This document shows, piece after piece, positions 1,425 to 57,599 of a stretch of DNA of 64,000 nt. The position numbers and the translations under genes are program-made. The stretch spans positions 1-64,000 of the IMG/VR virus record IMGVR_UViG_3300032092_003271. One strand, 5' to 3'. The notes under the pieces are model-generated. The model was given only the letters and a program-made list of their open reading frames with translations. It was not told the DNA's origin and searched no databases. Source of the stretch: a virus. Numbering within the stretch: the stretch's first letter is position 1; each line of letters begins with the position of its first letter.

Positions 1425-3464
1425 TTAATCTTTCTTTTTTCTTGTTTTTTTGACTTTTTCTTCTTTATCAGAAACAATAACCTCATCATTTTCAACCTTC
1501 AAGATATAATCTTTGTTTTCTTCAATCTCCATCATTAGGATTTTTTCAGAAATTAAATCCTCAATCTTATCTTGGATTGCTCTTTTGATTGGTCGAGCTC
1601 CGAATGTTTCATCAAATCCTACTTTGGAAATATAATCAATTAAATCTTGATCATAAGTAAAAATATATTTCTTTTCTAAGACTCTTTTTAGTAGTCGGTC
1701 AACCTCAAGTTTTGTAATTACATCAATATGTTTCTTTTCAAGTGAATTGAAGATAATTACATCATCGATACGATTTAAGAATTCAGGGGCAAAGAATTTA
1801 CTTAGTTCTTTTTTAAGAATTTCTCTTTTTTCCTCTTCTCTAACCGCGTCACTCTTACCTGTTTTAAATCCAACACCAGCACCAAAGTCTTGTAATCTTT
1901 TAACACCAATGTTAGAGGTCATAATAATCAAACAGTTCTTGAAATTGATTTTACGACCCAACGAATCCGTAATGTGTCCATCATCTAACAACTGTAAAAG
2001 TGTTGAGAAGATATCTTTATGTGCTTTCTCAATCTCATCAAACAACACAACTGAATAAGGTTTGTTTTTAACTTGTTCTGTTAATTGACCACCTTCATCG
2101 TGGCCTACATATCCCGGAGGAGAACCAATCAAACGAGAAATAGTATGTTTTTCTTGGTATTCACTCATGTCAACACGGATCATGTTATCTTCACTCCCAA
2201 AGATCTCTTTTGCCAACTGTTTTGCCAAGTATGTTTTACCTACACCTGTAGATCCTAAGAAAATAAATGAACCGATTGGTTTATTTGGATCCTTAATACC
2301 CATTCTATTTCTACGGATTGCCTTTGTAATCTTTAACACCGCTTCTTCTTGACCAATAACTTTTGAACTTAGATTATCTGTCAAGTTGATAAGGTTATTT
2401 CTTTCATCAAGGTTGATGTTTGAAATTGGAATTTTAGTCATGTTTGAAACTACCTCATAAACCAATTCTTCAGGGATAGTTCTTTTACTACTTCTAAGGT
2501 GATCCTCAAACTTTTTCTTTTCTTCCTCAAGTTTTGCAATCACACCTCTTTCACGATCACGAAGTTCCGCGGCTTGTTCGTAATCTTGTTTTTTGATTAC
2601 GTTTATTTTCTCTTGTTTAATTTTGTTGGCTTCATCTTTTAGGTTCTCAATAACCTCAGGAAGTTTAATGTCAATTTGCATTCTTGCACCAACCTCATCC
2701 AAGATATCAAAAGCTTTGTCAGGAAACTCACGATCTGTAATATAACGATCCGCCAACTCAACAAATGTCCATAATGTTTCATCATCATAAGTCACTTTGT
2801 GGTGATCCTCATACTTTTCTTTACTCATCTTCAAAATCTCGAATGTTTCCTCTTTTGAAGAAGGATCAACCACAACTTTTTGGAACCTTCTTTCTAACGC
2901 ACCATCTTTCTCAAAGTTTGTTCGGTACTCATCTAAAGTAGTTGCACCGATACACTGAATCTCACCTCGAGAAAGTGCTGGTTTGAGGATATTTGATGCA
3001 TCTAATGAACCTGAACTGTTACCCGCACCTACGATTGTGTGAATTTCATCAATAAACAAAATGATGTTTGGAGCCACCTGAAGTTCCTCAATAATCACCT
3101 TCATCCGTTCTTCAAATTGACCACGATACTTTGTTCCTGCAACCAAAGAATTCATATCTAAAGAAACAATTCTTTTATCCATTAAATTCTTAGGACATTC
3201 ACCATCATGAATCATCATTGCAAGACCTTCAACAATAGCAGTTTTTCCTGCACCTGGTTCACCAATAATAATTGGGTTATTTTTCTTTCTTCGAGATAAA
3301 ATCTGAGCAATCCTTAGGATTTCTTTTTTTCTACCAACCACAGGGTCTAATTTACCCTCCTGTGCTAATTTGTTTAAGTCCTTGCTGAAATTATCTAACA
3401 CAGGTGTTCCTGAATCAGACTTTTTTTTCGCTTTATCATTTCCTTCATCCATAAATTCTAACAT
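1425..3464 (-). CDS. ClpC-like AAA+ unfoldase lacking the N-domain
   Basis: 679-aa Hsp100/Clp ATPase with two AAA modules. Module 1 has Walker A GEPGAGKT (68-75), Walker B ILFIDE (135-140) and an ERRF arginine-finger region (190-194). The middle part holds a UVR-like motif (about 295-306, EQAAELRDRE), which is typical of ClpC. Module 2 has Walker A GSTGVGKT (404-411), Walker B VVLFDE (472-477) and a GARPIKR sensor-2 motif. A VGF tripeptide at 531-533 sits where ClpC carries its ClpP-docking loop, so it could feed host ClpP. The double-Clp N-domain is missing: the AAA core starts near residue 40. The last 25 residues are Lys/Glu-rich. It is transcribed divergently from dnaK across a palindrome. 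No clpP is in the window. ClpB is less likely because the coiled-coil M-domain is short and UVR-like. Confidence 0.85.
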   Translation of the reverse strand: MLEFMDEGNDKAKKKSDSGTPVLDNFSKDLNKLAQEGKLDPVVGRKKEILRIAQILSRRKKNNPIIIGEPGAGKTAIVEGLAMMIHDGECPKNLMDKRIVSLDMNSLVAGTKYRGQFEERMKVIIEELQVAPNIILFIDEIHTIVGAGNSSGSLDASNILKPALSRGEIQCIGATTLDEYRTNFEKDGALERRFQKVVVDPSSKEETFEILKMSKEKYEDHHKVTYDDETLWTFVELADRYITDREFPDKAFDILDEVGARMQIDIKLPEVIENLKDEANKIKQEKINVIKKQDYEQAAELRDRERGVIAKLEEEKKKFEDHLRSSKRTIPEELVYEVVSNMTKIPISNINLDERNNLINLTDNLSSKVIGQEEAVLKITKAIRRNRMGIKDPNKPIGSFIFLGSTGVGKTYLAKQLAKEIFGSEDNMIRVDMSEYQEKHTISRLIGSPPGYVGHDEGGQLTEQVKNKPYSVVLFDEIEKAHKDIFSTLLQLLDDGHITDSLGRKINFKNCLIIMTSNIGVKRLQDFGAGVGFKTGKSDAVREEEKREILKKELSKFFAPEFLNRIDDVIIFNSLEKKHIDVITKLEVDRLLKRVLEKKYIFTYDQDLIDYISKVGFDETFGARPIKRAIQDKIEDLISEKILMMEIEENKDYILKVENDEVIVSDKEEKVKKTRKKKD

Positions 3465-3633: not shown

Positions 3634-5490
3634 ATGGGAAAAATAATTGGAATTGACTTGGGAACGACTAACTCGTGTGTTGCTGTAATGGAAGGAAAGG
3701 AAGCGGTAGTTATTGCAAACAGTGAAGGAAAAAGAACCACACCATCTATTATAGGATTTGTTAAAGAGGGTGAAAGAAAAATTGGGGACCCTGCCAAAAG
3801 ACAGGCCGTAACAAATCCTGATAAAACAATTTACTCGATTAAAAGATTTATGGGATCTTCTTTTGATGAAATTAAAAACGAAACATCAAAGGTCCCTTAC
3901 AAGGTAGTTAAAGAAAATAACTCACCAAAAGTTCAAATTAATGATAGAACTTATTCACCACAAGAACTCTCAGCCGCAATTCTTCAAAAAATGAAACAAA
4001 CCGCCGAAGACTATTTGGGTCAATCGGTTACGGAAGCAGTTATTACTGTTCCTGCGTATTTTAATGATGCACAAAGACAAGCAACTAAAGAAGCTGGTGA
4101 AATTGCAGGACTTACAGTAAAAAGAATTATCAACGAACCAACCGCAGCTGCTTTAGCTTATGGTCTTGATAAAATGTCTAAAGATATGAAAATCGTAGTA
4201 TTCGACTGTGGTGGTGGAACTCATGATGTTTCCGTATTAGAACTTGGTGACGGTGTATTTGAAGTATTATCAACTGACGGAGATAGTCATTTAGGTGGTG
4301 ACGACTTTGACCAAGCACTAATCGATTATTTAGTATCGGAATTCAAAAAAGAAAATGGAATGGACATATCTAAAGATCCTATGGCACTCCAAAGACTTCG
4401 TGAGGCCTCTGAGAAAGCTAAAATTGAATTATCTTCTTCACCTCAAACTGAAATCAACTTACCGTATGTAACAGCAGATTCCACAGGACCAAAACACTTG
4501 GTAATGACTATTACAAAATCTAAATTTGATCAATTAACACAATCTTTGGTAAATAGAACAATTGAACCTTGTAAAAGAGCAATGTCTAACGCAAATCTTA
4601 CTGTTGGTGAGATTGACGAGATTATTTTAGTTGGTGGATCCACTCGTATTCCTGCGGTTCAAGAAGCGGTTAAAAACTTCTTTGGTAAAGAACCATCAAA
4701 AGGCGTAAATCCTGACGAAGTAGTTGCTTTAGGTGCGGCGATCCAAGGTGGTGTTTTAGCTGGTGATGTAACAGACGTATTGTTGTTAGACGTAACTCCA
4801 CTTTCATTAGGTATTGAAACTATGGGTGGTGTGTTTACAAAATTGATAAGTGCAAATACAACAATTCCAACAAAAAAATCAGAAACATTCTCAACAGCCG
4901 CAGATAATCAACCAACAGTAGAAATCCATGTTTTACAAGGTGAAAGAGCGATGGCAAGAGATAACAGAACTATTGGTAAATTCCACCTTGATGGATTACC
5001 ACCAGCAAGAAGAGGAACTCCTCAAATTGAGGTAACTTTTGATATCGATGCAAATGGTATTATTAATGTATCTGCGGTTGACAAAGCAACTAACAAACAA
5101 CAATCAATCCGAATTGAATCATCTTCAGGTCTATCAAAAGAAGAAGTTGAGAGAATGAAACAAGAAGCTGAAATGAATGCTGAATCCGATAAAAAATTGA
5201 AAGAGGAAGTTGATACTTTGAACTCGGCAGATTCATTAATTTTCCAAGTTGGTAAATCTATGGAAGATCTTGAAGGTAAAATCACCGAAGATGAAAAAAC
5301 TGAAATCAACTCATCAATTGATAAATTAAAATCCGCTTACGACAAGAAAGAAATTTCAGAAGTAAAAGTTTTAATGGAAGAGGTTAATAAAAAATTCCAA
5401 ACCATAAGTCAGAAGTTGTATGAACAAACAAACAACGCTGAAGTAACAGAAGAAGACTTTGCAAACGTAGAGTTCGAGGAAGTGAAATAA
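3634..5490 (+). CDS. dnaK: Hsp70 chaperone DnaK
   Basis: 618-aa, full-length DnaK. The nucleotide-binding domain carries the [13 protein letters not shown] phosphate-1 motif (6-18), K70 in SIKRFMG, the phosphate-2 motif around 193-198, and GGSTRIP (adenosine motif). The interdomain linker [12 protein letters not shown] lies near residue 385. A substrate-binding beta-sandwich and a helical lid follow. The C-terminus ends in EEVK, as in flavobacterial DnaK, pointing to acquisition from such a host. One oddity: the near-invariant GGGTFD motif reads GGGTHD, with His at 197 next to the catalytic Thr196, and Cys192 replaces the usual Leu. It has its own host-type promoter and terminator, so it is a single-gene unit. 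No dnaJ or grpE is present, so it would depend on host co-chaperones. Confidence 0.97.
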
Positions 5491-11747: not shown

Positions 11748-13553
11748 ATGGAAAATAACAATAAAAATCTAACGGTTTGGCAAAGGTTAGCAACGACTTT
11801 TGGTCCTGATTCTACATTAGGTCAAGGTCAACCTGATTACAAGTTAGATAAAAAAGAAATTTTAAAAACTCAAGATAAAGCTGAATATGAAAAAGCAAAA
11901 CTTCAAAATCAGCAATCTCTTTATTTAAGTGGTAATTGGGCTAAAGTAGAAAATAATTTATATACCCAAGCCGTATATTACGAACCAACAAGATTAGCCG
12001 CATTCTATGACTATGAATCGATGGAATATACTCCTGAGATATCAACAGCTTTAGATATTTATGCTGAGGAATCAACAACACCCGATCAAAACGGTTATGT
12101 TTTACAAGTTTATTCAGAATCTAAAAGAATAAAAAGTATATTGGTTGATTTATTCGTCAATACTTTAGATATAAACACTAACTTACCTATGTGGATTAGA
12201 AACATGTGTAAGTATGGTGATAATTTTGTTTATTTAAAATTGGACCCTGAAAAAGGAGTTACAGGATGTTTACAACTACCTAATATTGAAATTGAAAGAT
12301 TAGAAAGAGGTGTTGACTCAAGAACATACCAAGCAACAATGAATTTAAACAGAAAGGCTTTAAAGTTCGCATGGAAATCAAGAGACACAGAATTTAATAC
12401 TTGGGAGGTCGCTCACTTTAGATTATTGGGTGACGATAGAAAACTTCCTTATGGTACATCGATGTTAGAAAAAGCTCGTCGTATTTGGAAACAATTAGTA
12501 TTGTCAGAAGATGCGATGTTAATCTATAGGACATCAAGAGCACCTGAAAGAAGAGTATTTAAAGTTTACGTTGGTAACATGGATGACAAAGATGTGGAAC
12601 CATACGTACAAAGAGTTGCAAACAAATTTAAAAGGGATCAAGTTGTTGATAGAAAAACAGGAAATGTGGATTTACGATTTAACCAAATGGCGGTAGATCA
12701 AGATTACTTTATTCCTGTACGTGATCCGGCACAAGCGAGTCCGATTGAGACTTTGCCGGGAGCACAAAACTTATCTGAAATTGCTGACATCGAGTACATC
12801 CAAAAGAAATTAGTTACAGCGCTTCGTATTCCTAAGGCTTATTTAGGATTTGAGGAACCTGTAGGTGATGGTAAAAACTTATCATTATTAGATATTCGTT
12901 TTGCAAGAACAATCAATAGAATTCAAAAATCTGCAATTGCAGAAATGAACAAAATTGCAATCATCCACTTATTCCTTATGGGATTTGAGGATGAGTTGTC
13001 AAATTTTACTTTACAACTTACAAACCCATCAAAACAAGCTGACTTGTTAATGATTGATGTGTGGAAAGAAAAGGTAACACTATACAAAGATATGGTTACT
13101 GAAGTCCCAAAATCAATCCAAGCTGTTTCGGCTACTTGGGCGAAAAAACACATTTTTGGTTTCTCAGACGAAGAAATTAAACTTGAGTTACAACAAATTA
13201 GAATGGAAAGAGCAGTTTCTACTGAACTTGATAATACCGCAACAATCATCACAAAAACAGGTATTTTTGATACTGTAGATAGACTTTATAAACCTGTAAC
13301 AGGTGGAACAATGACACCTACAGCACCTGCAGCACCAGGGGCTGAGGCGGCACCAGGGGCAGAAGCACCTGCAGAAGCGGCACCTGCAGAGGCAGCACCA
13401 ACAGTTCCTGAAAGTATTAGAAAAGAAAAAAATAAACTAATATTAGAATCTAAAGATGATGATTTCGATGAAGATGAGTTTTTAGATTTTAAAAAAATGA
13501 ACGGATCTTTAAATCTTATTGAAGATGAATTAAATAAACTTCTTGGTGACTAA
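11748..13553 (+). CDS. 20: Portal vertex protein (T4 gp20-like)
   Basis: 601 aa. Clear T4 portal signatures include LPNIEIERLERGVDSRTY, a RAPERRVFKVYVGN segment with the following VANKFKRDQVVDRKTGN, and the SEIADIEYIQKKL to PKAYLGFEEP region. It forms the dodecameric ring at the unique capsid vertex through which DNA enters and leaves, and binds terminase. An Ala/Pro-rich linker (about 522-553, APGAEAAPGAEAPAEAAP) precedes an acidic C-terminal tail; such a low-complexity insert is not a T4 feature. Its own late-type motif precedes it. Confidence 0.95.
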   Translation: MENNNKNLTVWQRLATTFGPDSTLGQGQPDYKLDKKEILKTQDKAEYEKAKLQNQQSLYLSGNWAKVENNLYTQAVYYEPTRLAAFYDYESMEYTPEISTALDIYAEESTTPDQNGYVLQVYSESKRIKSILVDLFVNTLDINTNLPMWIRNMCKYGDNFVYLKLDPEKGVTGCLQLPNIEIERLERGVDSRTYQATMNLNRKALKFAWKSRDTEFNTWEVAHFRLLGDDRKLPYGTSMLEKARRIWKQLVLSEDAMLIYRTSRAPERRVFKVYVGNMDDKDVEPYVQRVANKFKRDQVVDRKTGNVDLRFNQMAVDQDYFIPVRDPAQASPIETLPGAQNLSEIADIEYIQKKLVTALRIPKAYLGFEEPVGDGKNLSLLDIRFARTINRIQKSAIAEMNKIAIIHLFLMGFEDELSNFTLQLTNPSKQADLLMIDVWKEKVTLYKDMVTEVPKSIQAVSATWAKKHIFGFSDEEIKLELQQIRMERAVSTELDNTATIITKTGIFDTVDRLYKPVTGGTMTPTAPAAPGAEAAPGAEAPAEAAPAEAAPTVPESIRKEKNKLILESKDDDFDEDEFLDFKKMNGSLNLIEDELNKLLGD

Positions 13554-14044: not shown

Positions 14045-14755
14045 ATGTTCGGAGAATTAAAATCAAAAATAGAAACGCATTTAACTGAATCCTATAAAAA
14101 AGGTACTCTAAAGGATAACTTATTCGTATTTGAAGAGTTAGTTTTAAAAAACAAAAATATATCAAAGATATTTTTCTTGTACGACGAATTATCAAGTAAT
14201 AAAGGTCTTCAGGAAAGTATTGCAAATGAATTCATAAATGAATCAATAACTGCATACGAAAACTTATTTAATAAAGTTTCTCCTTTCAGTGTAAAAGAAC
14301 TTAAAATGTGGGTTGGTCATGTTCAGTGTGAAAATACATACAAAGAAATTGACAATTTATTCTCAACAAATGTTTTAACTTTAGAAAACAAAATTAAAAG
14401 TAAAAAAGTTATTTTAGAAAATTTAAAAACTAAAGAACAAGAAAAGAAAGAGATAATTAATGTACCTTTAAAATCTATGGTGAATGTTGCAAACAAAACT
14501 GTTGAGAAATACATTCAGTCACTTTCTGAATCTGAAAGAAAAGAATTAAAAAAATTGTTATCTACCCCAAAAGAAACTTTGATTGAAAATTATAATAAAT
14601 TAAAGTCAGATGTTTTTGAAAAATTAAACTCGCAAAAAGATAATTCAGACGAAGAAACGTCAAAGACTATAGATCAAGTTTTAAACAAATTGCAAAACGA
14701 ATCGTTTAACGAATTGAATTACTATAAGTTAGGAAAACTAAACGAGGGACTTTAA
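14045..14755 (+). CDS. Putative prohead core protein with cleavable leader
   Basis: 236 aa, almost entirely helical and Lys/Glu-rich, with coiled-coil stretches around 95-200. The N-terminus MFGELKSKIETHLTES is a short amphipathic helix ending in L-T-E before Ser15, which fits the T4 gp21 cleavage rule [LI]xE and the form of T4 capsid-targeting leaders. It sits in the T4 gene 67/68 position. I infer a scaffold or internal head protein that is processed during maturation. No enzyme motif. Confidence 0.6.
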   Translation: MFGELKSKIETHLTESYKKGTLKDNLFVFEELVLKNKNISKIFFLYDELSSNKGLQESIANEFINESITAYENLFNKVSPFSVKELKMWVGHVQCENTYKEIDNLFSTNVLTLENKIKSKKVILENLKTKEQEKKEIINVPLKSMVNVANKTVEKYIQSLSESERKELKKLLSTPKETLIENYNKLKSDVFEKLNSQKDNSDEETSKTIDQVLNKLQNESFNELNYYKLGKLNEGL

Positions 14756-14923
14756 TTTTTGAATATAGGAAGCCTTAATGATTTGGGCTCTTTTCTTAAC
14801 TGAAGGTTTTACAAACTCTTTCCTCTCAAACAAAGCTGAGTTTTGTTTGGTTCTAATAACTTTTCCTTTAAGGTCTTTTAGGGCCTTCTCAATGTTTCCT
14901 TTTTTTACTTCTACTAATAACAT
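14738..14923 (-). CDS. rpsU: Ribosomal protein bS21
   Basis: 61 aa on the minus strand inside the head module, overlapping the end of the preceding plus-strand gene by 18 nt. The sequence fits bS21: MLLVEVKKGNIEKALK at the N-terminus, a basic middle, then KPSVKKRAQIIKASYIQKL, the family's most conserved C-terminal block (39-58). It would join the 30S subunit near the 16S rRNA 3' end. In flavobacterial ribosomes bS21 helps occlude the anti-Shine-Dalgarno, and a conserved Tyr near position 54 is involved; here Y53 is the probable equivalent. Two overlapping late-type motifs lie upstream. No Shine-Dalgarno is seen before its ATG. Confidence 0.85.
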   Translation of the reverse strand: MLLVEVKKGNIEKALKDLKGKVIRTKQNSALFERKEFVKPSVKKRAQIIKASYIQKLKSLV

Positions 14924-14942
14924 AAAATTTTTGATTGTTGAT

Positions 14943-14955
14943 ATAAATATAAATA
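14943..14955 (-). promoter_or_regulatory. Tandem late-type motifs before rpsU
   Basis: On the minus strand GAATATTTATATTTATA contains two overlapping TATTTAT copies, ending 19 and 25 nt before the rpsU ATG. Their orientation fits the minus-strand gene. Confidence 0.5.
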
Positions 14956-15003
14956 TTCGTTAGATTTAATCAAAAATAAACATTGAGAACATGAAAAAAT
15001 TCT

Positions 15004-15471
15004 ATGAAAAAAGGAAAAACCACAAAATTAAGTGGATATCGAACATTCAAAGCCCAATATGGGACTATTGATTCACAAAACTTAAAATCAATTTACATCA
15101 ACATCCAAACATGGGTAGAACCTAAAGAAGAAGTGGAAAACTGGAACAGAGTCGTTCTAAATATGACAAGATCAGTTAAACACTGTGTGTTAGAAAATAT
15201 AAACAAAGATACATTTGACACAAAATTTATTGTAGATTTAGACCTCAGAACAAGCGGACTACAATTAAAAAAGAAATCCTTTATGAATTTAGAAATAAAT
15301 TTATTTTTATTAGAACAAATGGATTTCAAATCACCAAAATTAAAAAAATCAGTTAAAAATTTAATCAAAGAAGTTTACAGTGATGTTTTTAGTAAAAACA
15401 GATACTTCAAATGTTTTCTTACAAAAAACGGAAATCAAAAACTTGTTAAGAAAGAAACTGAAACTGTTTAG
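15004..15471 (+). CDS. Hypothetical protein in head module
   Basis: 155 aa, basic, alternating strands and helices, no recognised motif. The start at 15004 is chosen because a nearby ATG at 14991 is in another, soon-closed frame. It lies just before the prohead protease and after the antisense rpsU. Probably a late protein linked to head assembly, by position only. Confidence 0.65.
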   Translation: MKKGKTTKLSGYRTFKAQYGTIDSQNLKSIYINIQTWVEPKEEVENWNRVVLNMTRSVKHCVLENINKDTFDTKFIVDLDLRTSGLQLKKKSFMNLEINLFLLEQMDFKSPKLKKSVKNLIKEVYSDVFSKNRYFKCFLTKNGNQKLVKKETETV

Positions 15472-15492: not shown

Positions 15493-16221
15493 ATGAGCGA
15501 TTTAAAAATATTAGGACCAAGAGATTCAGGAAAAGGGATTCTTGTTGAGTATGACGCAGGATATATAGACCCAAATGAAAGAAGAAACTTATCTATGATT
15601 AGAGAGAACAGAGATATGTTAGACCATTCAAAACCATTTGAGTTTTATGCTGTATTACAAAAATACAATACCCCAAATAGAAACGGGAGAGTTTACCCTG
15701 AAAAGATTCTCAAAAGAGAGGCTGACAATTATAAAAAGATGATTCAAAAAGGAACCGCCCTTTCTGAGTTAAATCACCCTGAATCATCTCTAATAGATTT
15801 AGATCGAGTATCCCACGCCATTACCGATATATGGTGGGAAGGTCCTGTGTTATTAGGTAAATTGAAATTACTTACAAGTCCAGGTTTTCACGAAAGAGGT
15901 ATTGTATCAACAAAAGGGGATTTAGCCGCTAACTATCTTCGTCAAGGTGTAACATTAGGTATATCTTCTCGTGGTGTTGGGTCTCTTAAAAAAGTTGGTG
16001 AACAAAACGAAGTACAGGATGATTTTGAATTAATTTGTTTTGACTTAGTATCATCTCCATCCACGCCAGGAGCATATCTTTTCAGAGATAAAGACGAAAG
16101 AATGAATTACGAAGAGAATTTAGATGAGGAGAAAAAAATGCAAGCCGAAAGACATATTGGTGAAACAGGATCAAAATCACTTGACTTAATGAATAGATTG
16201 TCCGATTATTTGAATAAATAA
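15493..16221 (+). CDS. 21: Prohead core protease (T4 gp21-like, peptidase family S77)
   Basis: 242 aa. The family signature is visible: H95 in SELNHPESS, the Ser motif GISSRGVGS (157-164, nucleophile S158 or S159) and the FDLVSSPSTPGA block (183-194). The enzyme cleaves scaffold, core proteins and capsid protein after [LI]xE during T4 head maturation. Candidate substrates here are the capsid protein (LINE|A) and several small proteins with leaders ending in LTE, IRE, LKE or ILE. It is followed at 6 nt by a DUF4494-like gene and then by the scaffold and capsid genes, the standard T4 order. Confidence 0.92.
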   Translation: MSDLKILGPRDSGKGILVEYDAGYIDPNERRNLSMIRENRDMLDHSKPFEFYAVLQKYNTPNRNGRVYPEKILKREADNYKKMIQKGTALSELNHPESSLIDLDRVSHAITDIWWEGPVLLGKLKLLTSPGFHERGIVSTKGDLAANYLRQGVTLGISSRGVGSLKKVGEQNEVQDDFELICFDLVSSPSTPGAYLFRDKDERMNYEENLDEEKKMQAERHIGETGSKSLDLMNRLSDYLNK

Positions 16222-18120: not shown

Positions 18121-20061
18121 ATGGGAGCATTATTAGAATCAGGTCTTGTTGGTAACATCGGGTTGAAACACCTTAAAGTTATCAAAGAAGACACAATTAA
18201 CAAGTGGGACAAATTAGGCTTTTTGGATGGTCTAAAAGGTCACTTAAAAGAAAACGTTGCACAATTATACGAAAACCAAGCATCTTACTTAATTAACGAA
18301 GCAACTTCTGACGGTCAATCAAACGGAGCGTTCGAAACAGTTGTTTTCCCAATCGTAAGAAGAGTTTTCTCTAAATTGTTGGCTAACGACATCGTATCAG
18401 TACAAGCTATGAACTTACCTATCGGTAAATTGTTCTACTTCGTACCAAGAATCCAAGGATATGCGAACCAATCTTCTGAGTACGCTAACTTATATCCTAA
18501 CTCAACACCTTCTAACAGTACTGCTGGTGGTGACCACTACGCACCTATTGGATCTCCTGAAGCTGTTAACGCAGGATTGAATAATCCTAACCAAGGATAT
18601 CCTGATAACGACTACTACTACAAGAAAGATCTTTATGATTTATTCTATGAAGGTAACGAAGCGTCTTTAGATCCTCCAGGATTATTTGACTACTCTAAAG
18701 GTAAGTGGACTGCAGTTACTGCAACTACAACAATCCAAGCATGGGCAGGTTCTGAATTAGTTAATGCCGCTATCGGTTCAGGACAATTGATTCCAGCAGG
18801 TAACTACAGAAAAGTTATCGTTAAACTTTGTGGATTCAACAGTTCAGGAGCTGGTAAATTAATCGGTCCTGATGGTAACGAAATGGACACTGAATCATTC
18901 CTTTCTGACCTTAGAATTTACGCGGCTAACGGATTCTCTGCTAACACAACTTCACCTTGTAGTGTAACAACAACTACTTACAACGGAGCTACAGTTTACG
19001 CTCCTCTATTATTTAGAGTTGTAACTCAAATCTACGGTAAAGGTATCGTTAAATATGGTAGCAACGCAGGAACTGTGTTTAATAACACTGCAACTGTACC
19101 TAACACACCATTAAATGGTGGTAACGGTGGTAACTATAATGACATCTGTGATGCAGGTGGATGTATCTGGTTAGAAGTTGACCTTTCTTGTCCTGTATGT
19201 GCTGACTGTGATGCATCTTCTTTAGATGGTTACACAGGAACAACAATCGCATCAGGTGGATCTGCTACTTCATTCACAGCATGGTATAGAAGATACGCTA
19301 ATATGGAATTCGAAGATCAAATTGGTGAGGTTTCTTTTGACCTTGAGTCAGTAACTGTATCTGTTACAGAAAGAAAACTAAGAGCACAATGGTCTCCTGA
19401 ATTAGCTCAAGACGTTGCAGCATTCCATAACATCGACGCTGAGGCTGAGTTAACAGCATTGTTATCTGAGCAAGTAGCTGCTGAGATTGACCGTGAAATC
19501 TTACGTGACTTACGTAAAGGTGCAGCATGGCAATTACGTTGGGATTACAACGGATGGAGAAGAATCAACAACCAAGTATCTTACACTCAAAAAGACTGGA
19601 ACCAAACTTTGATTACAGCAATCAACCAATTGTCAGCACAAATCCACAAATCTACTTTGAGAGGTGGTGCTAACTGGATCGTTGTTTCATCTGAGGTTTC
19701 TGCTATCTTTGACGATTTAGAATACTTCCACGTATCTAACGCGGCTCCTGAGCAAGATCAGTACAACATGGGTATTGAAAGAGTTGGTACATTATCTGGT
19801 AGATACCAAGTTTACCGTGATCCTTACTTCCCACCAAACCAAGTTTTGATTGGACACAAAGGAACATCATTGTTAGACACAGGTTACATCTACGCTCCGT
19901 ATGTACCTCTACAATTGACACCTACAATGTACAACCCATTCAACTTTACACCTATCAAAGGTATTATGACACGTTACGCTAAGAAAATGGTTAACAACCG
20001 TTTCTACGGACGTATCACAGTTGATGGAGTTAGAACATTCGACTTGAGAGAATTGAGATAA
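18121..20061 (+). CDS. 23: Major capsid protein (T4 gp23-like)
   Basis: 646 aa, against about 520 in T4. The HK97-fold gp23 family is recognisable at the N-terminal delta region, at FPIVRRVFSKLLANDIVSVQAMNLPIG (76-102) and at the block RKLRAQWSPELAQDVAAFHNIDAEAEL with following EIDREI (about 419-460). A maturation cut is expected after LINE (E60|A61), as T4 gp23 is cut after FLTE. About 200 extra residues (roughly 135-400) form an insertion containing a Cys cluster (C344, C349, then CPVCADC at 357-363). There is no late-type motif directly upstream; it is probably co-transcribed with the scaffold and has a very A-rich leader. Confidence 0.95.
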   Translation: MGALLESGLVGNIGLKHLKVIKEDTINKWDKLGFLDGLKGHLKENVAQLYENQASYLINEATSDGQSNGAFETVVFPIVRRVFSKLLANDIVSVQAMNLPIGKLFYFVPRIQGYANQSSEYANLYPNSTPSNSTAGGDHYAPIGSPEAVNAGLNNPNQGYPDNDYYYKKDLYDLFYEGNEASLDPPGLFDYSKGKWTAVTATTTIQAWAGSELVNAAIGSGQLIPAGNYRKVIVKLCGFNSSGAGKLIGPDGNEMDTESFLSDLRIYAANGFSANTTSPCSVTTTTYNGATVYAPLLFRVVTQIYGKGIVKYGSNAGTVFNNTATVPNTPLNGGNGGNYNDICDAGGCIWLEVDLSCPVCADCDASSLDGYTGTTIASGGSATSFTAWYRRYANMEFEDQIGEVSFDLESVTVSVTERKLRAQWSPELAQDVAAFHNIDAEAELTALLSEQVAAEIDREILRDLRKGAAWQLRWDYNGWRRINNQVSYTQKDWNQTLITAINQLSAQIHKSTLRGGANWIVVSSEVSAIFDDLEYFHVSNAAPEQDQYNMGIERVGTLSGRYQVYRDPYFPPNQVLIGHKGTSLLDTGYIYAPYVPLQLTPTMYNPFNFTPIKGIMTRYAKKMVNNRFYGRITVDGVRTFDLRELR

Positions 20062-34812: not shown

Positions 34813-35415
34813 TTATTTATTAAATTTATATAAACATAACCCAACAGAATCATATGGTAAATCATCAAAATCTGAATTCTTTTTATCGGCAAATAATCGT
34901 TCAACTAAAGACCATTTTTCTGAATTTTCAATATAATCTTTTATTTTTATTGATTTTGTGGAATGAGCTTTGTCATACGGTCTATAATGATCCCAATCGT
35001 GCATACAAAAATATGTACCATCATCAATAAAATTTTCTAAAACAATTATATCATTAAGGGCAACATCAGAATCTTCTGGACCATCAAACATAATAAAATC
35101 AGGTATTAAATTATTTTTTAATAAATCATTTATCATGACATCAGAATTGGTTTTGTAAAATTTTACAAAATCAAAAACATTAAAAAACTCATTATCTGGT
35201 TTTCTAACTGGGTCACAAGTATGTACGGTAGAATTTAGATTATTATCTTTAATTGATTTAGAAATAAAATATGTTGATCCACCACCATTACCAGTACCAA
35301 CTTCTAAAACTAAGGTTGGTTTTATTTCTGAGATCCAATTATATAATTTATATCTTTCATATGGTAACATTTCACCATCAAAAATATCATTAAAAAAATT
35401 AATTTTTTCAGTCAT
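34813..35415 (-). CDS. Class I SAM-methyltransferase-fold protein
   Basis: 200 aa. Motif I LVLEVGTGNGGGS (36-48) and the acidic DFIMFDGPEDS region are typical of class I methyltransferases of the Methyltransf_24/cephalosporin hydroxylase type. The substrate is likely a sugar or a small molecule in the glycan pathway, by context. 18 nt separate it from the upstream methyltransferase-like gene, to which it is only distantly similar. Confidence 0.7.
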   Translation of the reverse strand: MTEKINFFNDIFDGEMLPYERYKLYNWISEIKPTLVLEVGTGNGGGSTYFISKSIKDNNLNSTVHTCDPVRKPDNEFFNVFDFVKFYKTNSDVMINDLLKNNLIPDFIMFDGPEDSDVALNDIIVLENFIDDGTYFCMHDWDHYRPYDKAHSTKSIKIKDYIENSEKWSLVERLFADKKNSDFDDLPYDSVGLCLYKFNK

Positions 35416-41365: not shown

Positions 41366-42862
41366 CTAATTAAATAATTTATTTTTGTTATTTTTAACAA
41401 AGGGTAATAAAAATTTATTATAATCTTCCTGTTCTCCTTTTGAATTTTTTTCGTCTTTACCCCTTGTTTTACTTTCGTAGTGATAAGCAACTAAAGACCC
41501 GTCATAATAATTTTTAAGACCAAGAAGTCTAACGGATAAATTTAACTCAACATCCTCAAAACAAGTTGTGTAATTTTCATTATAACCACCGGCATTATTA
41601 AATGTGTTTTTCCTAATCATCATAAGTGCTGCTGTACTACCAACAACTTCTTTTATTCCTGTTGTGTATGAATAGTACGAACCTAACGATGCGTGAGTTA
41701 ACATAAGTTGATCTTTTCCTGGTTGTAATTGCATTATAATACCGTCGTGTTGGATTGTATTGTCCTCATAATGTAATCTAGCCCCCACTGTACCAACTTT
41801 AGAATTTTCTTTAAAAACTTTTAACATTCCATAAATAACGTTATTCAGTATTATTATATCATTATTACAAAATAATAAAAACTCGTGCCTGTCAGATAAA
41901 TGGTTTTTAACCACATCATTATTTATTTTTGCAAAATTATAATAATCATACTCAACCAACATAATTTTACCTAAAGGTAAAATTTCATTTTTAATTCTTT
42001 CTTTTTCTTCGTTAGTTGATCCAGTATCGGCAATAAAAATTTCAAATAAATTATCATTACAGTTATCGTAAAATGATTTCACACAATTAAACAATAAGTC
42101 AACATTACCTTTAGTTGGTATTATAACCGCGACTTTACCAATGTTTTTTATTTGTTTTTCTTTAATTTCAGGATAATTAACATTTTTTGGTCTTAAATCT
42201 AATGGTAATTTATCACCCCATTTCTCAACAAATTTTTCTTTACTAACCCAAAATTCTTGATTTGGTTGACCAACAGATTCATGTGTAATTTCAAAAGATG
42301 AGGTTACACCAATTTTGATACCATCCAAATAGTTTGGAATACAAAATAGATGATCGTAAAAGTGAAACTTTCCAATTGTCTCATCAAACGTATGTTTAAT
42401 TTTTGTTTTATCGAAAGATATGAATAAACCATCAATAGTAACAACAGGGATTAAGTAGGGTAATTTAACTGAATATTTGTTTATCCATTTTTTTTGACCT
42501 TCGGGGTGATGATATACTTGACCAACCATTGTCTGATGCATTTTTTCCCAATAGACACCTGACTCAGGAAAGTAACAAGATCCGGCCTTTCCAATAATAC
42601 CAAATTCAGGATTATTAGAAAAATCCTCTAAAAGTTTTTTACCCCAATTTTTTTCTAATTTAATGTCGTTGTGGCAACAAACTACAATATCGTAAATTGA
42701 TTCACTTACCCCACTATTATATACTTGAGATAATGAGTATTGGTTATGATTTTCAAATTCTAAAATCTGTACATCCTTTAAACCAACTGTTTGTAACAAA
42801 TGTTCTTTAAATTTGTTATTGTAGTTTTTGTCTTTATGTGTTGAATATATAATAGTTATCAT
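41366..42862 (-). CDS. Two-domain GT2 glycosyltransferase
   Basis: 498 aa with two GT-A-like modules. Module 1 (1-220) has VVCCHNDIKLEKNW, a D-x-K variant. Module 2 (230-498) starts KVAVIIPTKGNVDLL and contains LLFCNNDIIIL (metal site), EVVGSTAALMMIRK and the FEDVELNLSVRL catalytic ED motif typical of GT2 rhamnosyl-type transferases. Bifunctional or processive sugar transfer is possible. It overlaps the upstream gene by 4 nt. Confidence 0.75.
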   Translation of the reverse strand: MITIIYSTHKDKNYNNKFKEHLLQTVGLKDVQILEFENHNQYSLSQVYNSGVSESIYDIVVCCHNDIKLEKNWGKKLLEDFSNNPEFGIIGKAGSCYFPESGVYWEKMHQTMVGQVYHHPEGQKKWINKYSVKLPYLIPVVTIDGLFISFDKTKIKHTFDETIGKFHFYDHLFCIPNYLDGIKIGVTSSFEITHESVGQPNQEFWVSKEKFVEKWGDKLPLDLRPKNVNYPEIKEKQIKNIGKVAVIIPTKGNVDLLFNCVKSFYDNCNDNLFEIFIADTGSTNEEKERIKNEILPLGKIMLVEYDYYNFAKINNDVVKNHLSDRHEFLLFCNNDIIILNNVIYGMLKVFKENSKVGTVGARLHYEDNTIQHDGIIMQLQPGKDQLMLTHASLGSYYSYTTGIKEVVGSTAALMMIRKNTFNNAGGYNENYTTCFEDVELNLSVRLLGLKNYYDGSLVAYHYESKTRGKDEKNSKGEQEDYNKFLLPFVKNNKNKLFN

Positions 42863-54581: not shown

Positions 54582-57500
54582 ATGGCAAATCCATATAAAA
54601 ATCCACAAACACCTTTATTAGCGGTTGGAACTTTCTCAGTTCAACCAAGTCAGACATTTGGTACTAATTTTAGTATATATAGTGTTGGTGGTTATATGGA
54701 AGTTTATGAACTTCAGGATTTAATTTATACAATCCCAACTGGATCTCAAGGAGATATAGAATTTTCAGGTAATACAATTCCAATACAATTCCAAAAAGGT
54801 AGTGGATCGGTTTTCTCACCTGACGTTTTAACATTAAATTCGGATAATATTTCGTCAGGTCGTAGAAGACTTGGTATGTTGGCGTATGTTTATTCAACAC
54901 AAGAAATATTCCAATATAATATCCCAAATTATACGACACTTTGGAATAACGCATTGGCGGCTTCAGGACCTGGTGGACCAACCGTACTACAATCAAAATT
55001 TGGAACCACAGTAAAAAGTAATTCAGCTGCAGGACAAGCGTTAATTAATGCTTGGACAGGATCAACAATTCAGGGTCACAGTGGTGGAACTGCCAATTCT
55101 AATTGGAGATTATTAGACACAGGTGGATGTTGTATTACAGGATTTACATACAACAATGACAATAGTTTCACTATATACGATGATAATGGTGGTGTATTTA
55201 CCGCATCTTTTGATGTTGTTACAGGATTGACAGTATCAGGAGGATCTTTAATTGTTAATGGTGTTAATATTACAGGTGACACATTTACAACAGGAGGTAC
55301 ATATTTTAGTGCAACAAGTACAATAGATTTATATGACAATCAAGGGGGTATTGTTACAATTACAGGTATAACGGCATCAGGTGTTGCAGGATCAAACGGA
55401 TCTTCAGGTTCTAGCGGTACTTCAGGAACATCAGGAACATCAGGATCTAATGGATCTTCAGGTATATCCGGTTCTTCAGGATCTAGTGGGACTAGCGGAA
55501 CATCAGGTGTAAGCGGTTTATCAGGAACGAGCGGTTCTTCAGGTTCTTCAGGTTCTTCAGGAATTTCAGGATCTTCAGGGACTTCAGGAACTAGAGGTTC
55601 TTCAGGGACTTCAGGAACTTCAGGGACTAGAGGTTCTTCAGGTAGTTCAGGAAGTGGTGGTACAAGCGGTACAAGCGGAGTTAGTGGTGCGTCAGGAACT
55701 AGCGGTACAAACGGTACAAGCGGTAGTTCAGGAACATCAGGAAGTAGTGGTACAAACGGTACTTCAGGAACATCAGGAACTTCTGGTACAGGTGGTACTT
55801 CAGGTATAAACGGACAATCAAATTCATTATTCCCATATAACGCAAGAGTAGATATCCAATCAGGAGATCCAGGTAATACAAATATTATTTGGAATAATGT
55901 AACACAATCGGCATCAACACAAATAAATATTTCACATTTAGATAATGATAATGATGATATTGATATATTTTTGGGGTTAATTCCAAGTGGAACAACAATT
56001 ATTATCCAAGACCAAATTAATTCAACTGAATTTCAAAAATGGATTGTTGGAGTTGGTGTTGAAGCGGCTCCCAATTCATATTGGACTTTTCCTGTTACAT
56101 TAGTATCATCAACCATTGAATTTACAGGTGGGGAAAATATATTATTTATTATAGGACAATTACCTTCTGGAACAAGTGGGGTATCAGGAACATCAGGAAC
56201 ATCAGGATCTAATGGTTCTTCAGGTACGTCAGGAAATAGCGGTACAGACGGAACTTCAGGGTCTAGTGGTTCTTCAGGAAGTAGTGGTTCTTCAGGAAGA
56301 AGTGGTTCTTCAGGTACGTCAGGAACTAGCGGTATAGATGGAAACGATTCTTCGAATAGTGGTAGATGGGGATATGAGGGCATTTCTACTACTCCCGGAC
56401 CTGGTCGTTTTGGGACGGATAACCCGGTAATGAGTTTAATTGGGTATGTCTACATAAATTCAGAAGCCGAAAACGGTGTAGATTATTCTACATGGCTTTC
56501 AGGAGTAGATAGTATACAAAACCTTGGATTCCCTGTTTCTTTACAAATTACACAGGTAGGTTCTAACAATATTATCGGTATATGGGAAGTTGTTTCTATT
56601 ACTTCAACAGGTAGTGTTTACGAGTTTCAAGTTGACCCGCCATTTGTTACAAATGGTACTATAACAGATACTTGTACAATATCATGGGTATATAATGGGA
56701 TCAGTGGTTCTTCAGGTTCTTCAGGAATTTCAGGATCTTCAGGAATTTCAGGTTCTTCAGGTTCTTCAGGTTCTTCAGGTTCTTCAGGAATTTCAGGATC
56801 TTCAGGGACTTCAGGAACTAGAGGTTCTTCAGGGACTTCAGGGACTAGAGGTTCTTCAGGTAGTTCAGGTTCTTCAGGGACTTCAGGGACTAGAGGTTCT
56901 TCAGGGACTTCAGGGGCTTCAGTTGCCGTTAATGGTATCACAAATTACGTTGTTAAATTTACAGGGTCAACAGGTATCGGTAATAGTCAAATTTTTGATA
57001 ATGGAACCACAGTAAGTATCGGTACATCCGCATCGACTAGTAATTACAAATTAGATGTTCGTGGAGCAACCATTATGTCTGCAACAACAGGAACAAGTCT
57101 AACTGTAATTAGTTCAGGTAACAGTACATCGGCACCCGTACTTTCAGTCCAAGGATCACAAGGCGAATTGTTTAGTGTTACGGATAGTTTAATTGGATCT
57201 TTATTTTCCGTTAATGACATTTCAGGTTTACCTATACTGGAGGTATTTTCTGATAGTACCACAATAATTGGTAACTATTTAGCGCCTTCATTATATACGA
57301 CAACAAAAGTAACATCGATAACTGCATCAACTGGAACAACAATATATTCAATACCGATCAGTGCATACACATCTTCATTTATTGATTATTATGTAAGTGG
57401 AGCCACAGGTATGAGAGCAGGTAATATTATGGCAATATGGAGCGGGACTACTGTACAATCAACAGATAATTCAACCGCAGACATCGGTAGTACAACACCT

Positions 57501-57599
57501 TTAACATTTGGGTTTTTGGTTTCGGGGTCAACAACATTATTTAGTGCGTCAGCATCAACAGGGAATTGGACTGTTGAGTCCATAATAAGGGCATTGTAA
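54582..57599 (+). CDS. Collagen-like tail fibre protein
   Basis: 1005 aa. The N-terminal 265 residues form a virion-attachment and beta domain. Three Gly-x-Ser/Thr collagen-like blocks (about 267-407, 530-588, 706-778, made of GSS, GTS, GIS, GNS and GRS triplets) alternate with beta-rich globular domains. The C-terminal domain (about 785-1005) resembles a fibre tip with a shallow hydrophobic end. Such Gly-X-Y blocks should form trimeric rods. No Pro is used, unlike animal collagen, so stability must come from Ser/Thr or from glycosylation, which is notable given the nearby glycan genes. Confidence 0.75.
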   Translation: MANPYKNPQTPLLAVGTFSVQPSQTFGTNFSIYSVGGYMEVYELQDLIYTIPTGSQGDIEFSGNTIPIQFQKGSGSVFSPDVLTLNSDNISSGRRRLGMLAYVYSTQEIFQYNIPNYTTLWNNALAASGPGGPTVLQSKFGTTVKSNSAAGQALINAWTGSTIQGHSGGTANSNWRLLDTGGCCITGFTYNNDNSFTIYDDNGGVFTASFDVVTGLTVSGGSLIVNGVNITGDTFTTGGTYFSATSTIDLYDNQGGIVTITGITASGVAGSNGSSGSSGTSGTSGTSGSNGSSGISGSSGSSGTSGTSGVSGLSGTSGSSGSSGSSGISGSSGTSGTRGSSGTSGTSGTRGSSGSSGSGGTSGTSGVSGASGTSGTNGTSGSSGTSGSSGTNGTSGTSGTSGTGGTSGINGQSNSLFPYNARVDIQSGDPGNTNIIWNNVTQSASTQINISHLDNDNDDIDIFLGLIPSGTTIIIQDQINSTEFQKWIVGVGVEAAPNSYWTFPVTLVSSTIEFTGGENILFIIGQLPSGTSGVSGTSGTSGSNGSSGTSGNSGTDGTSGSSGSSGSSGSSGRSGSSGTSGTSGIDGNDSSNSGRWGYEGISTTPGPGRFGTDNPVMSLIGYVYINSEAENGVDYSTWLSGVDSIQNLGFPVSLQITQVGSNNIIGIWEVVSITSTGSVYEFQVDPPFVTNGTITDTCTISWVYNGISGSSGSSGISGSSGISGSSGSSGSSGSSGISGSSGTSGTRGSSGTSGTRGSSGSSGSSGTSGTRGSSGTSGASVAVNGITNYVVKFTGSTGIGNSQIFDNGTTVSIGTSASTSNYKLDVRGATIMSATTGTSLTVISSGNSTSAPVLSVQGSQGELFSVTDSLIGSLFSVNDISGLPILEVFSDSTTIIGNYLAPSLYTTTKVTSITASTGTTIYSIPISAYTSSFIDYYVSGATGMRAGNIMAIWSGTTVQSTDNSTADIGSTTPLTFGFLVSGSTTLFSASASTGNWTVESIIRAL
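55381..55811 (+). repeat. Collagen-like 9-nt repeat block 1
   Basis: Nine-base units of the type GG(T/A)(N)(C/T)TTCA encoding GSS/GTS triplets. Contains an 83-nt segment (55533-55615) identical to 56760-56842. Confidence 0.85.
56170..56346 (+). repeat. Collagen-like repeat block 2
   Basis: Shorter array of the same 9-nt units, more diverged, encoding GTSG, GSSG, GNSG and GRSG. Confidence 0.8.
56698..56919 (+). repeat. Collagen-like repeat block 3
   Basis: Array of 9-nt units dominated by GGTTCTTCA, with an 83-nt exact copy of part of block 1 (56760-56842). Confidence 0.85.

Follow-up and report, generated by a model that had tools for sequence, protein, structure and literature searches.

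Among ribosomal proteins carried by phages, bS21 is the most common, but what it does for them is unproven. Phage-encoded bS21 in general has been known since 2019, when the protein of the pelagiphage HTVC008M, a myovirus, was shown to enter the ribosomes of Escherichia coli; it is presumed to take the place of host bS21 (Mizuno et al. 2019, PMC6375957). The phages described by Chen et al. 2022 (ISME Commun, PMC9723584), clades a–e, share a reverse-strand bS21 gene located between TerL/portal and prohead protease/MCP and flanked by two conserved hypothetical families. Their bS21 is Bacteroidetes-like, with an aromatic residue at the position of Tyr54 and a divergent N terminus (PMC9723584). 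In Flavobacterium johnsoniae, the anti-Shine–Dalgarno sequence (anti-SD) is hidden by bS21 together with bS18 and bS6, and Tyr54 matters (PMC9976891). F. johnsoniae ribosomes without bS21 translate rpsU through an extended Shine–Dalgarno sequence (SD), and bS21 is thereby autoregulated (PMC9976891).

Here we analyse a bS21 gene in an IMG/VR record of 96,919 bases, the first 64 kb of which constitute the window. The G+C content of the record is 31.7%, compared with 31.0–33.7% for the complete genomes of Chen et al.

Identity and setting of the phage bS21 gene

The gene lies on the reverse strand within the TerL–portal–protease–MCP region, as in the group of Chen et al. The features of the locus are the following (window coordinates).

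11748–13553, + strand: portal protein (T4 gp20 type), context of bS21
14045–14755, + strand: h14045, conserved hypothetical head-module gene, convergent with bS21, present in bS21-less relatives too
14738–14923, − strand: phage bS21 gene, 61 aa, ATG start, with profile, structure-sequence and HMM matches
14738–14755: tail-to-tail overlap of bS21 and h14045, 18 nt (4–18 nt in relatives)
14924–14948, − strand: SD-less bS21 leader (ATTTATATCAACAATCAAAAATTTT), best pairing with the 16S 3′ tail +1.6 kcal/mol
14942–14957, − strand (bS21 sense): promoter-like motif of putative function, a tandem pair of overlapping RTATTTATW copies that begin at −33 and −27 relative to the bS21 start
15004–15471, + strand: h15004, conserved hypothetical gene, divergent from bS21, present in bS21-less relatives too
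15493–16221, + strand: prohead protease (T4 gp21 type, Peptidase_S77), context of bS21
18121–20061, + strand: major capsid protein (gp23 type), context of bS21

The translated 61-aa ORF (MLLVEVKKGNIEKALKDLKGKVIRTKQNSALFERKEFVKPSVKKRAQIIKASYIQKLKSLV) scores above the cut-offs of both Pfam PF01165 (Ribosomal_S21; E=9e-10, 38.5 bits against 27) and the NCBIfam equivalog TIGR00030 (29.5 bits against 28.95). Residues 1–59 align with bS21 of the F. johnsoniae ribosome (7jil; E=9e-10), and a host-only HMM gives the protein 58.8 bits, with 2,000 same-letter shuffles reaching at most 10.5 bits. A preliminary description of this DNA had named the ORF bS21 on the strength of its C-terminal block; the block, KPSVKKRAQIIKASYIQKL, is present, and the profile and structure matches bear out the assignment. 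A search of PHROGs gave no convincing family (best E=0.039). There is one copy of bS21 in the record. An ORF on the + strand opposite bS21 (14778–14963) was rejected as spurious, selection tracking the bS21 frame.

Along the + strand, the head module runs terminase, portal, two hypotheticals (h13565 and h14045), h15004, prohead protease, a small protein, an acidic scaffold-like protein and the major capsid protein. bS21, inserted between h14045 and h15004, is the sole opposite-strand gene of this stretch, with 80 nt between its start and that of h15004. The antisense placement proposed earlier is thus correct, with h13565/h14045 on the portal side and h15004 and the protease (from 15493) on the other. 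h15004 encodes a highly conserved 155-aa protein with a confident predicted fold (AlphaFold pLDDT 87.5). A structure search with this model returned no solved structure at E <0.05, and its only good structural match is an uncharacterised myovirus protein, A0A8S5L9A5 (TM about 0.8). h15004 may correspond to bS21_CN of Chen et al.; PMC9723584 does not specify which neighbour that gene is.

Other genes of the window were noted in passing. Close to the head module are a Clp-type AAA+ ATPase (ClpB/ClpC-like; 1425–3464, − strand), adjoined by a Peptidase M20/M42-like protein (352–1377, − strand), and a full-length DnaK/Hsp70 (3634–5490, + strand). Chaperones and Clp protease were also noted in the bS21 phage group by Chen et al. 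(PMC9723584). Collagen-like repeats occur in long proteins encoded at 54582–57599 of the window and at L082:15463–17328, with matches to phage tail fibre families for the latter. Between about 28000 and 51000, a long series of genes lies on the − strand; the two genes checked match glycosyltransferases (41366–42862) and a methyltransferase (34813–35415), and the series perhaps consists of surface polysaccharide genes.

Conservation, origin and loss

A scan of viral contigs identified 144 relatives, and 80 loci were fetched. bS21 is antisense to the head genes in all 80, and h14045 and h15004 flank it wherever both flanks are covered. The 3′ overlap with h14045 measures 4–18 nt in 74/74 loci and the divergent gap to h15004 78–100 nt in 78/78. 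Among 78 distinct phage bS21 genes, the median dN/dS is 0.23 and none of the 653 usable pairs exceeds 1; although the pairs are not independent of one another, they point clearly to purifying selection on the gene. These IMG/VR relatives probably belong to the same group as the phages of Chen et al.

In a genome scan, the nearest bacterial sequences come from Flavobacteriaceae, at 60% identity or less. A tree of 108 sequences groups the 42 phage representatives in a single clade (support 100/95, recovered in 200/200 sampled bootstrap trees), with the host Bacteroidota outside it; the alignment has 64 columns only, and finer branching is not to be trusted. The phylogeny proposed in the preliminary description therefore confirms an affinity with Bacteroidota, with Flavobacteriaceae nearest, and places the phage proteins in a clade of their own apart from host bS21. 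Three bS21 proteins from other huge phages fall outside the phage clade, on the host side of the tree.

In nine related records (loci L224, L225, L226, L227, L228, L231, L232, L233 and L234), h14045 is followed directly by h15004 across a gap of about 70–170 nt, and bS21 is absent both from this site and from the rest of the record; these records are fragments, and a copy elsewhere in the full genomes is possible. In a portal tree, the root of which is unsure, the bS21-less phages are split between two positions, both adjacent to phages that carry bS21, a pattern that suggests at least two losses of the gene. As this site is empty of bS21 in at least two related lineages, the gene is not essential to the head module. 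We also considered h15004 as a dedicated partner of bS21 and rejected this, because nine phages carry h15004 without bS21. Chen et al. did not find their bS21_CN gene in two bS21-less outgroups, whereas both h15004 and h14045 are present in our nine bS21-less relatives. Having the same head module, these empty-site relatives provide a natural comparison.

A promoter-like motif shared with head and tail genes

The motif RTATTTATW (TATTTATA) occurs in sense orientation within 60 nt upstream of 20 of the 100 gene calls in the record (shuffled mean 1.4, maximum 5). Its reverse complement is found upstream of three (shuffled mean 1.9). A motif pointing away from bS21 (TATAAATA on the + strand) was ruled out by this count, which identifies TATTTATA as the sense form. 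Upstream of bS21, the sense strand reads TATTTATATTTATA, so that the tandem late-type motifs described earlier are real and belong to the strand of bS21. The label 'late' derives from the other genes that bear the motif, among them those for portal, protease and scaffold and a tail gene with collagen-like repeats. We infer that RTATTTATW is a promoter of late type; late transcription of such phage bS21 genes has been reported by Chen et al. (PMC9723584).

Among relatives, TATTTATA is present in 128 of 147 bS21 leaders, in tandem in 43, the remaining leaders carrying other AT-rich sequences; some contigs were fetched by both of two scans and are thus represented more than once among the 147. 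In one subset of loci (L061, L062, L072, L073, L074, L076 and L237–L243), the leaders lack TATTTATA, and a GATATNTG-like sequence lies within a few bases of the ATG. Such leaders represent a different promoter type and possibly a near-leaderless mRNA.

Phage bS21 leaders lack the Shine–Dalgarno sequence of host rpsU

SD strength was measured as the best duplex with the 16S 3′ tail within the 25 nt before each start, the tail being taken as UCACCUCCUUUCU, which we assume from general knowledge of Bacteroidota 16S. An extended SD, below −13 kcal/mol, precedes 75 of 80 host rpsU genes (median −19.3 kcal/mol); of the remaining five, one has masked sequence and four have no SD. In a wider Bacteroidota sample, 22 of 30 rpsU genes lie below −10 kcal/mol, and a few Bacteroidota have no SD on rpsU. 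By contrast, no SD was detected in either the first phage set (0/80 bS21 leaders; median +1.6, lowest −2.9 kcal/mol) or the second (0/67; lowest −3.3 kcal/mol), giving no extended SD in 147 phage leaders overall. The extended upstream SD that marks autoregulated rpsU, a feature of host genes, is accordingly missing from the phage bS21 gene. One bS21 leader unlike those of the studied clade, that of the 735-kb huge phage LR756501 (L250), is SD-like (AAAGGAGGATAA, −12.1 kcal/mol).

The genes of the record itself have a median of −1.7 kcal/mol, compared with −2.7 kcal/mol for random 25-mers. Phage mRNAs are therefore poor in SD sequences as a rule, that of bS21 included, and the contrast reported here is one between the phage and host genes that encode this one protein. 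Because the absence of an SD is common to the other genes of the record, it need not be a selected escape from autoregulation.

The C-terminal half and the Tyr54 equivalent are retained

The phage protein combines a host-like C-terminal half with an altered N terminus. K39, S41, R45, K50, A51, Y53 and Q55 are all shared with hosts, Y53 being the equivalent of Tyr54, the Bacteroidia-type aromatic that stacks on A1534. An aromatic residue occupies this position in 60 of 61 distinct phage proteins (52 Y, 5 H and 3 F), with a gap in the other one. The preliminary description had made loss of the rRNA-contacting residues a test of its reading, and at this position the contact residue is kept; its mention of '18S-like' neighbours is inapplicable, as the neighbour is 16S rRNA. 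Positions 17, 20, 22, 23, 27, 32 and 36, at which hosts are almost invariant, differ systematically in phage bS21.

Retention of the Tyr54 equivalent, together with the SD-poor phage genes, argues that phage bS21 leaves the anti-SD hidden rather than exposed: few phage mRNAs bear an SD that could profit from its exposure. A model in which the phage protein exposes the anti-SD is disfavoured for the same two reasons. The idea that a late-made phage copy reprograms host ribosomes toward phage mRNAs, put forward in the preliminary description and a published hypothesis (PMC9723584), thus receives only partial support, and a switch in anti-SD accessibility is disfavoured. If phage bS21 confers any selectivity, the source would have to be its diverged N-terminal helix.

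Discussion

Taken as a whole, the explanation that we favour, and consider somewhat probable, is that 14738–14923 is a functional phage bS21, acquired once by the ancestor of a group of large, T4-like phages that infect Bacteroidota, transcribed from a promoter of its own, probably late, and translated from an SD-less message that lies outside host feedback. Its functional-copy element is based on homology, the single clade, the fixed antisense site, purifying selection, the retained C-terminal half and aromatic Tyr54 position, the changed N-terminal helix and the SD-less leaders.

How such a protein might act can be outlined as follows. Phage bS21 would enter the host 30S subunit, replacing or joining host bS21, and would keep the anti-SD sequestered there, leaving ribosomes tuned to SD-less mRNAs; most phage genes resemble such mRNAs. 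Having no extended SD, its own mRNA would be read by ordinary replete ribosomes and would hence escape host autoregulation, a mechanism in which ribosomes lacking bS21 have to pair with an extended SD. As phage bS21 fills the 30S pool, it would remove the bS21-less ribosomes that host rpsU requires. New host bS21 synthesis would then be off, and 30S subunits made or repaired late would as a consequence carry the phage version. Phage bS21 may in this way hijack the feedback, being free of SD control, filling bS21-less ribosomes, silencing host bS21 and converting new 30S subunits without a protease or inhibitor, a proposal that we infer and advance only tentatively. The opposite suggestion was made by McNutt et al., for whom autoregulation assists the host in restoring its own bS21 (PMC9976891). 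The difference in SD between host and phage makes such feedback capture directly testable in F. johnsoniae with existing reporters.

Several observations weigh against the favoured explanation. Ribosome entry of this phage protein is predicted from its sequence, and the bS21 that does enter E. coli ribosomes is that of a different phage, infecting Pelagibacter (PMC6375957). The evidence for a Bacteroidota host is indirect, and a few Bacteroidota have an SD-less rpsU. SD absence is the rule for the other genes of the record, and at least two lineages lack bS21. Moreover, the Pelagibacter phage protein nearly abolished in vitro translation by E. coli ribosomes (PMC6375957), so poisoning, as opposed to tuning, is possible. 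Phage bS21 might then block or slow most initiation and shut off the host, an extra factor sparing some phage messages. The activity of about 5% left to those ribosomes in vitro (PMC6375957) agrees with this, but the test used a distant host and late phage protein synthesis needs active ribosomes, and we consider poisoning very improbable for the present gene.

Chen et al. hold that the phage protein takes the place of host bS21 and, through an altered N-terminal helix close to the mRNA path, makes ribosomes prefer phage transcripts. The conserved, systematic N-terminal differences and the retained C-terminal anchor fit a selective ribosome of this kind (PMC9723584). Yet no mRNA feature is known that such a helix would recognise, host and phage mRNAs are both SD-poor, and the reading is itself drawn from sequence; we regard it as rather unlikely. 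Selectivity might be absent altogether if bS21 became limiting late and the phage merely added ordinary bS21 for 30S activity, with no consequential effect on rpsU. Such a supplement, which we judge quite improbable, is in keeping with the function-bearing residues, which are kept, with purifying selection, and with bS21 being loosely bound and exchangeable (PMC6375957), but not with the consistent replacement in phages of N-terminal residues that are near-invariant in hosts. Finally, bS21 could act outside the ribosome, packaged in the virion or active in head assembly. Chen et al. mentioned packaging as one possibility (PMC9723584), and the head-module site is fixed in all bS21-bearing relatives. 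The loss of bS21 from relatives that retain the neighbouring head genes, and the conservation of its rRNA-anchoring half, make a virion role scarcely credible.

Comparison with known systems

The described systems compare with the phage gene as follows. Host Bacteroidia bS21 (F. johnsoniae rpsU, 7jil; PMC9976891) shares with the phage protein its family, C-terminal half and Tyr54 equivalent, and the closest bacterial sequence is 60% identical. It differs in that the phage gene has no upstream extended SD, and the phage protein has a one-residue deletion near residue 9 and changes in the region of host R17, R20, F22, D23, T27, R32 and Q36. The bS21 of HTVC008M, compared here by its published description, is of alphaproteobacterial host origin (PMC6375957). 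Mel-JY01 (PP395634), a phage recorded from a cyanobacterium, Microcystis, also carries an RpsU gene, near the prohead protease of a T4-like head module, and its portal is the best match to the present one in the phage collection (42%). The Mel-JY01 gene (L249:10557–10784), however, is on the same strand as the head genes, just after the protease; its product differs at the N terminus and is outside the set of sequences in the bS21 tree.

The main text of Chen et al. (PMC9723584) does not mention promoters, motifs, rpsU or autoregulation, and a literature search, with subscription papers largely outside its scope, found no statement on phage bS21 leaders or on a difference in SD between host and phage. 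The gene, its antisense site, Bacteroidetes hosts, Tyr54 and late expression are already published (PMC9723584), and the present record adds one more member to that group. What goes beyond the published description of these phages is the SD contrast, the shared motif and the empty sites, none of which makes a new kind of system.
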